This document shows positions 4,417 through 29,294 of a stretch of DNA of 39,811 nt, piece by piece (the stretch's first letter is position 1; every line of letters begins with the position of its first letter). Where the stretch lies: the NCBI GenBank assembly GCA_937129355.1, contig CAKZNA010000151.1:1-39811 (forward strand), read 5' to 3'. The notes below the pieces were generated by a model. It was not told the DNA's origin, did no database searches, and saw only the letters and a program-made list of their open reading frames with translations. Source of the DNA: an uncultured Sphingomonadales bacterium. Lineage in GTDB: Bacteria > Pseudomonadota > Alphaproteobacteria > Sphingomonadales > Sphingomonadaceae. Made by a program: the position numbers and the translations under genes.

Positions 4417-5169
4417 ATGGAAAGACGCAGCAGCAAATTCACATCATTCGATGGCGTAGAACTTGCTATACATGAGATGGGGCAGGGGCGTCCGCTTCTC
4501 CTTCTTCATGGGTTGTTCAGCGACGCGCATATGAACTGGATTAAATTTGGCCATGCGGAAAAGTTGGCCGATGCAGGGTTTCACGTCGTGATGCCGGATT
4601 TACGTGCGCATGGCCAAAGCGATGCGCCGCATGATCCGAAAGCCTATCCTAAAGACGTGTTGGTTAAGGATATTAGCGCGATAATCGATAGCTTTGGTTG
4701 GGATGAATTTGACCTTGGCGGTTTTTCCCTTGGCGCGCGAACGACGGCAAAACTGCTCGCGACAGGGACATGCCCGCGCAAGGCAATATTGGCCGGGATG
4801 GGGTTGGAAGGCCTTTCGGGCTGGCTTCAACGCCGCAATTTCTTCTTCACCGCTATCGACAAACGCAATAGCGCAAAGCGAGGAGACCGGCACTGGATGG
4901 CAATCCAGTTCATGAAAAGTCAAAAAATCGATCCGATCGCTGCCCGTTTTCTACTTGGCACATTTACGGATATGGAAACCGCAGATTTGGCAGAAATCGA
5001 TGTGCCAACGCTTGTCTTGTGCGGATCAAATGACCGGGACAATGGTTCGCCTGAAAAACTTGCCGCTGCTCTTCCAGATGGCCAGCATGTAGCGATCCCC
5101 GGGACCCATATGAACAGCGTAACACGGCCTGAACTGGCTGTTGCTATCAAGATGTTTCTGGAGGGCTAG
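4417..5169 (+). CDS. Alpha/beta hydrolase
   Basis: GRPLLLLHGLFSDAHMNW oxyanion region, nucleophile elbow GGFSLGARTT, PTLVLCGSNDRDN, and catalytic His in GTHMNSV. Confidence 0.88.
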   Translation: MERRSSKFTSFDGVELAIHEMGQGRPLLLLHGLFSDAHMNWIKFGHAEKLADAGFHVVMPDLRAHGQSDAPHDPKAYPKDVLVKDISAIIDSFGWDEFDLGGFSLGARTTAKLLATGTCPRKAILAGMGLEGLSGWLQRRNFFFTAIDKRNSAKRGDRHWMAIQFMKSQKIDPIAARFLLGTFTDMETADLAEIDVPTLVLCGSNDRDNGSPEKLAAALPDGQHVAIPGTHMNSVTRPELAVAIKMFLEG

Positions 5170-10709: not shown

Positions 10710-12107
10710 ATGACTGTGTCCTTCAATGACTATGTAATTGCCGACATCGGCCTTGCCGATTTTGGCCGTAAAGAGCTTGATATTGCCGAAACCGAAATGC
10801 CCGGCCTGATGGCTTTGCGTGAGGAATACGGCTCTTCGCAACCTCTAAAGGGTGCACGTATTGTTGGCTCGCTCCACATGACGATCCAAACCGGCGTGCT
10901 TATCGAAACGCTTGTTGCTTTGGGCGCTGAGGTTCGCTGGGCAACCTGCAATATCTTTTCAACACAGGATCATGCCGCGGCTGCAATAGCGGCTCAGGAT
11001 ATCCCGGTATTCGCCGTTAAGGGTGAGAGCTTGGCAGATTATTGGGACTATGTTGGCCGCATCTTTGATTGGGGCGACATTACATCTAATATCATTCTGG
11101 ATGATGGCGGCGATGCTACGGCATTTGCTCTTTGGGGGGCGAAGCTGGAGCGCGGTGAAGAGTTTGCTGCACCAGAAAATGATGAAGAAGTCGAAATGCA
11201 ACGCGCCGTGAAAGAGTTTATCGCTCGCAAGCCCGGATATTTGACCGAAACAGTCAAAAATCTTCACGGCGTTTCGGAAGAAACTACGACCGGCGTTCAC
11301 CGCCTATATGACATTTCGAAGAAGGGCGAATTGCCATTCCCCGCTATCAACGTGAATGATAGCGTGACCAAATCAAAATTCGACAATCTGTATGGTTGCC
11401 GTGAATCGCTGGTCGACGCGATCCGCCGCGCAACAGACGTTATGTTATCAGGTAAAGTTGCGTGTGTCGCCGGTTATGGCGACGTTGGCAAAGGTTCCGC
11501 TGCTTCCCTGCGTCAGGGCGGTGCCCGCGTTATGGTGACAGAAATTGATCCAATATGTGCGCTACAGGCTGCAATGGATGGCTATGAAGTTGTGAGCATG
11601 GATGAGGCCGTTGCGCGCTGTGACATTTTCTGCACTGCGACCGGTAATGCAGATGTTATCACCGCGGAACATATGAAAAATATGAAACCGATGAGCATCG
11701 TTTGCAACATCGGTCACTTTGATAGTGAGATCCAGATTGGCGCTCTTTCCAACTATAACTGGGATGAAATCAAGCCGGGTACCGACATGGTGACATTCCC
11801 CGATGGCAATAAAATCCTGATCCTTGCGAAAGGCCGCCTGGTCAATTTGGGTTGCGCAACCGGCCACCCTTCTTTCGTCATGTCTGCAAGCTTTACCAAT
11901 CAGGTGCTGGCGCAGATTGAACTATATACCAAGGGCGACGAGTATAAGAATGAAGTCTACGTATTGCCTAAGCATCTCGACGAAAAAGTTGCGATGCTGC
12001 ATTTAGCAAAATTGGGCGTAACGCTTAGCAAGTTAGATGAGAAACAGGCAGGCTATATCGGCGTGCCAGTTGATGGTCCCTTCAAACCGGACCACTATCG
12101 CTACTAA
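10710..12107 (+). CDS. ahcY: Adenosylhomocysteinase (S-adenosyl-L-homocysteine hydrolase)
   Basis: [81 protein letters not shown], terminal FKPDHYRY. Confidence 0.98.
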
Positions 12108-12130
12108 TAATAACCAAATTTGCGAAAATG

Positions 12131-12163
12131 AGCCCGTTTCCGAAAGGAGGCGGGCTTTTTTCT
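12131..12163 (+). terminator. Rho-independent terminator downstream of ahcY
   Basis: AGCCCGTTTCC-GAAA-GGAGGCGGGCT: 11-bp stem (with two G-T wobbles) closed by a GAAA tetraloop and followed by TTTTTT. Confidence 0.85.
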
Positions 12164-12232: not shown

Positions 12233-14554
12233 GTGGCGTTGGGCAATGACAGCATATTGGCATTAGTTGGCCTGCTTCTTGCGCTATGGTTAGTCGCGGC
12301 AACGGTCCTAATTTGGCTTGGCTTGTCCGCGCGGCGAAAAGCGCAAAAAACACTTCGGCAAACGGCACGTTTGACGCGGCTCTTGGAAACAGGGCCTGCA
12401 GTCCCGGTTGTTGTACGAAGCGACGGAAAGATCGAGGTATCCGAGCGTCTTTCAAAAATTTTGGGTCTTGAGACTGCTGCGGATAGCCTTTCGGGGCTCC
12501 ATGATCCATCGGGGAAGGGGATTGTGGAAAGTGACCTGGAAGCGTTGCAGGAACATGTGCTCAACACGCAAAGGATGGGAAGCAGGTTTGATTTGCCTAT
12601 CCGGCTCGTAGGGTCAGAGCGCCGTTTTTTGGTGGTTGGAAATATAGCTGACACGCTTGTCTATCCTAACGGAGCGGCTTTGCTTTGGTTTTTTGATCTG
12701 ACCAACAACATTCAGGAATTGGAAAAGTCAAAAGAGCAAGCGGAAGAAGCGCGTAAAGCATTCGCAGCATTGTCTGGATTGATAGAAGAAGCCCCGATTC
12801 CGATGTGGCACCGTGGCAATGATCTTAAGATAAGTCTTGTAAACAACGCATATGTGCAAGCTGTTGAAGGCGAAAGCAGTGAGCAGGTTGTTGCAGATTC
12901 CATAGAGCTTGTTGAAATGCAGGATGGCAAATCACCTGTTTCTTTCGCAGCAGAAGCGAAGCAGGCTGGGGTCGCTCAAGAACGCGTTATTTCCAACACG
13001 CTCGATGGTGAGCGACGTCAGATCAAGGTGCTTGATATCCCTCTTGGAGAAGCAGGCGTCGCGGGTATGGCGATCGATATGCAGGAGCTGGAGGACGCCA
13101 AGATTCAGTTTCGCCGGTTGTCAGATGCGCAGCGAGACCTGCTGGATATGATGTCAGCTGGTGTTGCCCAGTTCGAAGCCGATCAGAGCCTGGTTTTTGC
13201 CAATAGCCCATTCCAGCGCATTTTTGCGCTTCGTGACCAGTGGCTGGAGGATAAACCTGAATTTGCGCGGCTTTTGGACCGGATGCGCGAAAATGGAAAA
13301 TTGCCCGAAGTTCGCGATTTTCCCGAATGGCGTGTCCAAAGAGAAAATTGGTTCCGGTCAACCCAGCCTAACGAAGAAAATTGGCTCCTGCCCGATGGCA
13401 CTCATTTGCGCGTGCTCGCACAGCCGTTACCTAATGGCAGTTTACTGGTAATATTCGAAGATCGAACAGAGCAAGTTCAGTTAGCAAGTTCGCGCGACAC
13501 CTTGCTGCGCGTTAGAACCGCGACCTTTGACAACCTGTTTGAAGCGATTGCGGTATTCGCTTCTGATGGCCGGCTTTCGATCTGGAATCGCAAATTCGCT
13601 GAAACCTGGGGGCTTGAAGAGAAAAAATTGGCGGAGCATCCTCGTTTGGATGAATTGTTGCCTGAATTGGCTAAGCTCCTTGACAGCCCGGCCCAAATTT
13701 CTGTGGTCGGTGAATTGTTGAGAATGACGACAGCAAATAGGGAGCACCGCCAAGCGCGCGTGGCTTTTGCTGATGACCGAATGTTCCAGATATCAACGGT
13801 GCCGCTGCCGGACGGCAATGCCCTGTTTGCCATGCTCGATATGACAGACAGTATTCAAATAGAGCAGGCACTTCGTGATCGTAACGAAGCTTTATCGGAA
13901 GCTGACACGGTGAAGAACAAATTTCTCGCCAATATGAGTTACGAGTTCCGCACACCGTTGACGTCGATTAGCGGATTCGCAGATCTCCTGAAGGAAGGGA
14001 TCGCTGGCGATCTGACTGATCAGGCCCAAGAATATGTTGCAGCGATCTCCGCCTCTGCAGACCGGCTGTCTCAGCAGATCAACACTGTACTCGACTTTAG
14101 CCAAGGCCAGGCGGGCGAATTACCGATAGCGATGGAAGAAGTTGACTTGGCTTCGCTTTTAGAAGCTGTCCTTCAGTCTAATGAAGAGTCAGCGGTTTCA
14201 CGTTCCATCGCACTACGACTGGACATTGAAGGTGGCTTGCCATCCGTGAGTGGTGACAGCGAACGCCTGTATCAGGCAATTAGCCATGTTGTCGAAAATG
14301 CCATTACATACGGCAATGAAGATGGGCAGGTGCTGATCGCCGCCGCTGCGCAAAATAAGGTTGAGATTGTCATCTCCGATGATGGGCCCGGGCTAGATGA
14401 AGAAAAATGTGCTGCAATTTTCAATGCCAGTAAGGACGGAGGGCTTGGACTACCGCTCGCAAAGCAACTAATAGAAGCGCATGACGGTAAATTGGATTTG
14501 CGGTCTGAAGTTGGTAAAGGCACCACAGTAACCATCACACTGCCCAAACCGTGA
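12233..14554 (+). CDS. divL: DivL-like PAS-domain sensor kinase with tyrosine in place of the H-box histidine
   Basis: N-terminal TM segment, PAS-like regions, dimerisation/H-box KNKFLANMSYEFRTPLTSISGFADLL (Tyr, not His), intact ATPase boxes (VENAITYG, DDGPGL, GGLGLPLAKQLIEAH). GTG start. Confidence 0.85.
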   Translation: MALGNDSILALVGLLLALWLVAATVLIWLGLSARRKAQKTLRQTARLTRLLETGPAVPVVVRSDGKIEVSERLSKILGLETAADSLSGLHDPSGKGIVESDLEALQEHVLNTQRMGSRFDLPIRLVGSERRFLVVGNIADTLVYPNGAALLWFFDLTNNIQELEKSKEQAEEARKAFAALSGLIEEAPIPMWHRGNDLKISLVNNAYVQAVEGESSEQVVADSIELVEMQDGKSPVSFAAEAKQAGVAQERVISNTLDGERRQIKVLDIPLGEAGVAGMAIDMQELEDAKIQFRRLSDAQRDLLDMMSAGVAQFEADQSLVFANSPFQRIFALRDQWLEDKPEFARLLDRMRENGKLPEVRDFPEWRVQRENWFRSTQPNEENWLLPDGTHLRVLAQPLPNGSLLVIFEDRTEQVQLASSRDTLLRVRTATFDNLFEAIAVFASDGRLSIWNRKFAETWGLEEKKLAEHPRLDELLPELAKLLDSPAQISVVGELLRMTTANREHRQARVAFADDRMFQISTVPLPDGNALFAMLDMTDSIQIEQALRDRNEALSEADTVKNKFLANMSYEFRTPLTSISGFADLLKEGIAGDLTDQAQEYVAAISASADRLSQQINTVLDFSQGQAGELPIAMEEVDLASLLEAVLQSNEESAVSRSIALRLDIEGGLPSVSGDSERLYQAISHVVENAITYGNEDGQVLIAAAAQNKVEIVISDDGPGLDEEKCAAIFNASKDGGLGLPLAKQLIEAHDGKLDLRSEVGKGTTVTITLPKP

Positions 14555-14964
14555 TAGTGGCTGATGAACAAGCTATGGTCGAACTTGGCCTTAGCATAGC
14601 GAACCAACTTAAAATTGGCGATATCGTAGCGATTGACGGGCCGCTGGGAGCGGGCAAAACTGTTCTTTGCCGCGGAATTCTGGCAGGTTTTGGGTATTCA
14701 GGCGAAGTATCAAGTCCATCCTATGCTTTCGTAAATAGCTATGGGAAAGAGGATACAAGCATTCCCATTATACATGCCGATTTGTATCGGATGGCAAGCG
14801 AGGCCGATATTGAAGAATTGGGGCTGTTTGACGATTCCGAAAACTGCCTGACATTGATTGAATGGGCCAGCCTTTCAGAAGCCTGTATCAAAAGAACGGA
14901 GAAAACAGTGAGCATTGAACCGGCACGCGACGGCGCGCGGCGTTTGATCATAAACGGATTTTAG
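14551..14964 (+). CDS. tsaE: tRNA threonylcarbamoyladenosine biosynthesis ATPase TsaE
   Basis: Walker A GPLGAGKTVLCRGIL, SSPSYAFVNSY, HADLYRM, LIEWAS; GTGA overlap with the upstream kinase stop. Confidence 0.94.
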   Translation: MIVADEQAMVELGLSIANQLKIGDIVAIDGPLGAGKTVLCRGILAGFGYSGEVSSPSYAFVNSYGKEDTSIPIIHADLYRMASEADIEELGLFDDSENCLTLIEWASLSEACIKRTEKTVSIEPARDGARRLIINGF

Positions 14965-27450: not shown

Positions 27451-28791
27451 CTAGTCGTGACCAATCAAGCTACCAAACCGTTTGTCAAACTGTCCCCAAC
27501 TTTGGGCGGTCAACGAGGCTTGAATTTGTATCTCGGTTCCATTGTCTGATGAATTTATAACATGCCCCTTTTGGTGAAGCCAAGCCAGTGCGGCGCCTGC
27601 CGTAACAGGCAGTGAAAATTGGCGTTCCTCATTTGAAGCTATAATAGCTTTGGATACGAAGGTTAACAGTTCAGGAACGCCCTCCCCAGTTTGCGCCGAT
27701 ATAATCCGCACGTCACCGCGCCGCGATGCCAAATGTGATAAACTCTCTTTGATTTCAGGTGATACGCGATCAATTTTGTTCCAAACTTCGATCATCAGCG
27801 GCGTATCTTCGCCTCCCTCACCCTCGGGATCATTTCCTACGCCAAGTTCTTGTAATATCTGAACCACATCATCGCGCTGCTCATCACTGGATCCGTGTGA
27901 AATATCGCGAACATGCAATATGATATCGGCAGAAATAACCTCTTCCAATGTCGCACGAAATGCCGCTACCAGTTGTGTTGGAAGGTCGGACACAAAGCCA
28001 ACCGTATCTGACAAAATCGCTTTCTCAATACCGGGAAGTGTGACCTCCCGCATTGTTGGATCCAAAGTTGCAAACAGCATATCCTCTGCAACCACATCAC
28101 CGAGGGTAAGCCGATTAAACAGCGTTGATTTACCCGCATTTGTATAACCAACCAGCGCTATCACAGGCCATGGTGCCTTTTGCCGGCGTTCGCGGTGCAA
28201 GCCGCGTGTGCGCTTCACTTCGGAAAGTTCGCGGCGCAATCTTGCCATACGATCACGGATAAGTCGCCTGTCGGCTTCGATCTGCGTTTCACCTGGGCCG
28301 CCGAGAAAGCCGAATCCACCTCGCTGCCGCTCAAGGTGGGTCCAGCTTCGAACCAAGCGTCCGGCTTGATAGTCCAAATGAGCCAGTTCAACTTGCAAGC
28401 GGCCTTCGGCTGTGTTTGCTCTCTCTCCGAAAATCTCCAGTATTAGGCCGGTTCGGTCGATTGTTTTGAGACCCGTTTTCTCTTCAAGATTACGTTGCTG
28501 GATTGCCGATAGCCCGCCGTCGATTATCAGTAAATCTATATCAAGAGCTTCGCCGATTGCCTTTATTTCGTCAACTTGACCACCGCCGAGCAGCGTCGAT
28601 GCTCGCGGATTGCGCACTCTGAAATATTTGCTTTCTACGACATACAGGCCAATTGCTAGGGCAAGGCCTTCCGCTTCGGCAATACGTGCTTCTACAGATG
28701 CAACCTGCTTGCCGGCAATTTCTGGAAACACAACCAGCGCTCTAGCGCCGCGAGCAAATTCGTCTGCGTCTTCACGCCCAAAACCACTCAA
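27451..28791 (-). CDS. hflX: GTPase HflX
   Basis: [45 protein letters not shown]-domain [17 protein letters not shown]...[12 protein letters not shown] start overlapping the hfq stop. Confidence 0.96.
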
Positions 28792-29294
28792 TCGCTGTCC
28801 TTCTCGGTTTCTTCAAAACCTTCATTATATTCGGCCAAATTTACCGGGCGTGCTGGCTGAATTGTCGATATCGCGTGTTTGTAAACGAGCTGTGTTACAC
28901 CGTCTCGCTCCAACAAAACTGAAAATAGATCATATGCCGCGATAACACCCTGCAACATTACTCCGTTGACCAAAAATGCGGTGACGGATTCCTGACGATC
29001 GCTCATGGCGTGCAAAAATACGTCTTGTAGAACGCCCGGTCTATGTTTGGTCTTTGCCATCATATCGTTGAAAATCGTAATATCCGGTGACGACGAAGGC
29101 ATGACGGTGGAAATACTATGCTTGTAAACGAGCTGTGATTGCCCGTCGCGGCGGAGCAATACCGAAAAATTGTCGAACCACGTAACAACGCCCTGTAATT
29201 TAACACCTTTTACAAGGAACATCACGACAGGAGTTTTTGATTTTCGGACAGAATTCAGGAAAAGATCCTGCAATCCATTATTCTTGTCAGTCAT
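28788..29294 (-). CDS. hfq: RNA chaperone Hfq with two tandem Hfq/Sm domains in one polypeptide
   Basis: 168 aa; domain 1 (aa ~7-67) [61 protein letters not shown]; domain 2 (aa ~87-148) [62 protein letters not shown]. Confidence 0.96.

Follow-up and report, generated by a model that had tools for sequence, protein, structure and literature searches.

The window analysed here, a stretch of 39,811 nucleotides from an uncultured Sphingomonadales bacterium, encodes beside ahcY and tsaE a sensor kinase-like protein with a tyrosine where the phospho-accepting histidine of the H-box is expected. This raises the question of whether the gene is a true DivL, and hence a sign of a CtrA circuit in the organism, or an ordinary kinase that has lost its acceptor. 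The open reading frame lies on the forward strand at positions 12233 to 14554 and encodes 773 residues from a GTG start. Its HisKA (DHp) domain (PF00512, residues 561-628, positions 13913-14116, 69.8-74.8 bits against a cut-off of 26.9), which begins at 13913 in a genome-wide Pfam search, contains NKFLANMSYEFRTPLTSISGF, in which the TAC codon at 13940-13942 places Tyr570 at the acceptor position; coordinates and codon number are exactly those of the original prediction. The H-box was read in the eight best HisKA kinases of this genome, and tyrosine occupies the acceptor position in this one alone. We conclude, with a probability of about 93%, that this gene, from a Sphingorhabdus-like sphingomonad, is orthologous to divL and encodes a membrane-anchored, multi-PAS pseudokinase that most likely sets phosphate flow through CckA, ChpT and CtrA.

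The closest solved structure is that of Caulobacter DivL. A phmmer search against solved structures ranks 4q20 first (E = 2.3e-37), with an ordinary kinase as the next chain (5.7e-24), and the alignment of the product to 4q20, NVSYELRTPLTTI against NMSYEFRTPLTSI, equates Tyr570 with Caulobacter Tyr550. Among the matches listed in a fold search with the predicted model, 4q20 also has the highest identity (36%). In a maximum-likelihood tree of the DHp-CA region, whose deeper branches are weak and in which a few rows are long, the window DivL groups with Sphingorhabdus and congeneric DivLs (support 100/97), and a 98/98 branch sets the DivLs, that of Caulobacter included, apart from PhoR, ChvG, CckA, NtrB/NtrY (this genome) and HK853. 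Two loci first counted as DivL, L259 and L198, group with ordinary kinases in this tree and are not to be taken for DivLs. Querying contigs across genomes with the DivL protein returned just two hits, an unrelated kinase and, in a Sphingorhabdus MAG, a close relative (73%).

The tyrosine is widely shared. An order-wide search finds DivL in 116 of 121 genomes, and the acceptor is Tyr in all 37 Sphingomonadaceae DivLs, the window copy counted among them, and in 33 of 34 from other families of the order, the remaining one having Asp. At class level, in a sample that favours genomes matching the query well, 100 of 125 homologues have Tyr and 8 have His; the rest show Phe, Thr, Gln, Val, Ser, Gly, Leu, Lys, Arg or a gap. 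Conservation on this scale rules out chance or sequencing error as the origin of the residue. It also refutes the barely conceivable alternative that the gene is an ordinary sensor kinase of the PhoR/PnpS or WalK type in which the histidine was recently mutated in this lineage or misread. The top NCBIfam models for the product are indeed those of generic kinases, PnpS and PhoR among them, with a DivL model absent among the matches listed, but every score is far under its cut-off (168.6 versus 400). Moreover, Tyr is common to 171 of 198 homologues, a distinct PhoR-like kinase with the usual His is encoded on another contig of the genome, and both the best structural match and the conserved gene order belong to DivL. 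Tyrosine in place of histidine has been described throughout alphaproteobacterial DivL homologues, with the Ala of Magnetospirillum as the exception (Childers et al. 2014, PMC4211667), and because it is already stated there as a hallmark of the family, the substitution is a known one and not a local change. The window gene is an ordinary sphingomonad copy of divL, and its acceptor tyrosine is real but mostly expected.

Four DivL homologues (L216, L265, L266 and L139) carry an acceptor His together with an intact F-box and G boxes; ahcY and tsaE accompany L216, L265 and L266 within the same stretch. Judged from their sequences, these four may be DivLs with kinase activity, whether original or regained. 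Other DivL-like proteins with degenerate H-boxes have Thr (L236, L244, L263), Gln (L247, L252, L253) or Lys (L245) at the acceptor position and come from small genomes (about 0.8-2.2 Mb).

The domain plan agrees with the assignment. Pfam recognizes two PAS_7 stretches, PAS_4, HisKA and HATPase_c in the product, and an AlphaFold model shows an N-terminal helix, four PAS-like folds, a DHp and a CA domain (mean pLDDT 81); because its pTM is low (0.31), we use only its secondary and local structure. Residues 6-53 (12248-12391, forward strand like all features of the gene) form a hydrophobic run, modelled as one long helix, that corresponds to a membrane anchor and linker coil. PAS-like folds A (residues 56-155, 12398-12697) and B (residues 191-282, 12803-13078) come from model secondary structure only, whereas the PAS_7 domain (residues 304-416, 13142-13480; PF12860, 1.4e-23, in two stretches) and PAS domain D (residues 432-539, 13526-13849; PF08448/PF00989) are found by Pfam and in the model. 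The HATPase_c, or CA, domain spans residues 674-772 (14252-14548; PF02518, 77.3 bits). In Caulobacter DivL, residues 1-53 are a transmembrane helix and coil, followed by several PAS domains (PMC4211667).

Gene order is conserved as well. On the same strand, ahcY (S-adenosylhomocysteinase) lies upstream at 10710-12107 and tsaE downstream at 14551-14964, its start overlapping the divL stop (GTGA). All 37 family loci and all 34 order loci have tsaE downstream of divL on the same strand, and ahcY is a same-strand neighbour in 31 of 37 family, 25 of 34 order and 71 of 125 class loci, counts in which a missing ahcY can mean a location just outside the stretch read. An intrinsic-terminator-like hairpin with a T run (12130-12157, forward strand, 12-pair stem) stands right after the ahcY stop, in a scan that overall finds no more hairpins than shuffled sequence does; with the GTGA overlap, it suggests that divL and tsaE may form a unit apart from ahcY. 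A search near divL turned up no sigma-70-like promoter. The window holds no full TTAA-N7-TTAA CtrA site (0.47 expected by chance) and so gives no sign that divL is a direct CtrA target. At 28788-29294 on the reverse strand, the window also encodes an Hfq-like protein of 168 residues, apparently with two Hfq domains in tandem, which adjoins an HflX-like GTPase gene.

With structural match, tree placement, domain plan and ahcY-divL-tsaE order all on the side of DivL, and with the best matches being other than ordinary His kinases, the predicted orthology stands; so does its corollary, a CtrA circuit in this organism. The assembly (2.87 Mb in 312 contigs, 95.9% complete, 3.2% contamination) contains cckA, chpT, ctrA and divK, and cpdR and rcdA besides. 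CtrA, on contig C127, is 80% identical over 204 residues to a Caulobacter CtrA query and, independently of that query, scores 421.8 bits with the NCBIfam CtrA model (cut-off 350); its 97% identity to the CtrA of a congener argues against contamination for this gene. ChpT, on C21, exceeds the cut-off of PF10090 and matches ChpT in the PDB at 4.7e-23. For CckA, on C63, with the H-box AGGVAHDFNN, the top two NCBIfam models are CckA models, at scores under their full-length cut-offs. DivK, on C28, shares 51% identity with a Caulobacter DivK query, and its best PDB match, independent of that query, is DivK 1m5t (1.9e-33). CpdR is on C190 (NCBIfam 181.5, cut-off 180) and RcdA on C177 (PF07323). In the region upstream of ctrA (L041, 1301-1394), TTAACTCGAAATTAA matches the CtrA site TTAA-N7-TTAA exactly, and GANTC occurs four times.

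Across the 121 genomes of the order, DivL and ChpT occur together in 113, DivL only in 3 (fragmented assemblies), ChpT only in 1 and neither in 4, which fall in three genera (Fisher 2e-5, with genomes counted as independent despite their ancestry). Given this co-occurrence and the circuit genes in the assembly, the step from DivL to a CtrA circuit is sound, and a survey from 2010 agrees with it (PMC2877005). The input to DivK is less clear-cut: we found no clear DivJ or PleC orthologue in this genome, and the DivJ-PleC-DivK module is described as degenerate in Sphingomonadales (PMC2877005). A divergent 586-residue kinase on C131 (L007, G000:C131:1757-4948), whose HisKA part matches DivJ best (1.4e-10) and then PdhS (6.7e-10), in each case weakly and partially, may be what phosphorylates DivK. 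Contig C300 carries a second hybrid kinase, a potential counterpart of CcsA.

What the circuit controls is a separate matter. The literature searched contained no DivL work on a sphingomonad. In S. melonis, ctrA is dispensable and its known role is motility (PMC8116508), and the relay serves motility and biofilm formation (PMC8921679); a cell-cycle role should therefore not be assumed here, and coupling to the cell cycle in this organism is uncertain.

The ATPase domain, which the original prediction took to be intact, is so only in part. The N-box (Asn689), the G1 box (DDGPG, residues 716-720, 14378-14392) and the G2 box (GGLGL, residues 736-740, 14438-14452) are kept, but the F-box and ATP-lid between the latter two (FNASKDG, residues 730-736, 14420-14440) are shortened and the second F-box Phe is absent. 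The G1-to-G2 segment measures 21 residues in the window DivL, compared with 26 in Caulobacter DivL, 28 in the CckA of this genome, and 32 in HK853, PhoR and ChvG; family DivLs mostly have 30-33. At the two F-box Phe positions, Phe is found in 8 and 7 of 37 family members, as against 102 and 103 of 125 at class level (second position, Fisher p = 2e-12, with sequences counted as independent despite shared ancestry). Because L017, L027, L028, L030, L050 and L052 keep the F-box, its loss is nested inside the family.

Caulobacter DivL retains the H, N, G1, F and G2 boxes apart from the His-to-Tyr change, shows weak binding of an ATP analogue and lacks autokinase activity (PMC4211667). The window DivL departs from this pattern of retention. 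Since the Caulobacter protein is inactive even with its F-box, no more activity is to be expected of the window protein. Nor does the loss disqualify the latter as a DivL, because Caulobacter can do without the CA domain (PMC4211667) and short forms that lack DHp-CA are still counted as DivL. These comparisons also bear on the proposal, made for Caulobacter in 1999, that DivL acts as a tyrosine kinase. The conserved tyrosine and the kept N-box, G1 and G2 would suit such an activity, but with a Caulobacter protein that lacks autokinase activity despite having all its boxes (PMC4211667), and a window protein with a shortened F-box and ATP-lid, we consider it highly improbable that DivL works in this way here.

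The other half of the kinase-like region, the DHp domain, is strictly conserved where DivK would bind. Caulobacter Arg553 and Thr557, which matter for binding of phosphorylated DivK (PMC4211667), correspond to Arg573 (13949-13951) and Thr577 of the window protein, and the equivalents of the acceptor Tyr, Arg553 and Pro555 are each present in 37 of 37 family members. By analogy with Caulobacter, in which lack of kinase activity, binding of DivK~P, action on CckA and an allosteric role have been worked out, the window DivL would be expected not to phosphorylate itself, given its acceptor tyrosine and shortened ATP-lid, and its DHp domain would most likely still dock phosphorylated DivK. Its PAS domains would then most likely tip CckA, a hybrid kinase, towards either kinase or phosphatase activity, a bias that would set the flow of phosphate from CckA through ChpT to CtrA.

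Some genomes of the order lack most or all of divL. A genome of the same genus, G076, gave no DivL match in the order-wide search. Its ahcY-tsaE interval (L248, G076:C1:488000-500000, about 4636-4962, reverse strand) holds a frame of 109 residues, in which the first ~29 residues of DivL are joined to residues 710-794 of the version in the congener G111 (90% and 89% identical). A single copy of GGTTTTAATG marks the junction; G111 has this 10-mer at either end of the 2,058 bp that G076 lacks, a length divisible by three, which leaves the remainder in frame. The sequence has the look of a deletion by slippage between short direct repeats; the junction could also stem from faulty assembly. The genome keeps ctrA (97% identical) and chpT intact, and deletion of most of divL in a congener implies that DivL is not indispensable in the genus. 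Elsewhere, G091, G101 and G114 lack both divL and chpT and retain a diverged CtrA (60-67% identity), which suggests that loss of the DivL-ChpT layer goes with a relaxed or altered CtrA in these three genomes. In G059, DivL and ChpT are absent and no CtrA match was found either.

We tentatively propose, as a reading that we hold at less than even odds, that Sphingomonadaceae DivL has gone one step past the Caulobacter protein: the ATP-lid and F-box are dismantled while the DivK-docking DHp stays invariant, which would leave a nucleotide-independent reader of DivK~P that became dispensable in at least one congeneric lineage and was deleted there while CtrA and ChpT stayed. A less probable account, and in our view an unlikely one, is that DivL is in decay, with the whole DHp-CA region drifting to loss as the DivK input weakens and only the PAS part acting on CckA, as in the short DivL of Rhodobacterales. 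It would fit the loss of the F-box in most of the family (second Phe 7/37 versus 103/125 in the class), the deletion of residues ~30-709 in the congener, the degenerate DivJ-PleC-DivK module (PMC2877005) and the path traced in Rhodobacterales, from DivK loss to a degenerate and then a truncated DivL (PMC9430884). It sits poorly with docking residues that are fully kept (Tyr, Arg553 and Pro555), with the retained G1 and G2 boxes and with a DivK orthologue in this genome.

Our analysis confirms that a Sphingorhabdus-like sphingomonad has a CtrA circuit that includes DivL and DivK, a layer poorly studied in this group. To the known picture of DivL, the family-wide F-box loss and the deletion in the congener add modestly. 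That deletion, and the joint loss of divL and chpT across the order, are of more interest than the tyrosine. A lineage-specific F-box loss and a natural divL deletion with ctrA and chpT intact offer a handle on the role of the kinase-like half of DivL, and a way to ask whether DivL is needed where CtrA is non-essential.

Set beside Caulobacter DivL (4q20), the window protein shares the acceptor Tyr, the transmembrane helix, multiple PAS domains, a HisKA-type DHp and a CA domain, as well as the docking residues Arg553 and Thr557 and the co-occurrence with CckA, ChpT, CtrA and DivK. It differs in having Phe for Tyr562 and Ser for Ala601, and a G1-to-G2 segment of 21 rather than 26 residues without the second F-box Phe. 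Its own gene adjoins ahcY and tsaE. The short DivL of Rhodobacterales and DvlL of Anaplasmataceae are PAS-bearing proteins of this one family, likewise linked to CckA and CtrA (PMC9430884, PMC4426382); these proteins lack the DHp-CA region and usually occur without DivK, whereas in this organism both are kept.
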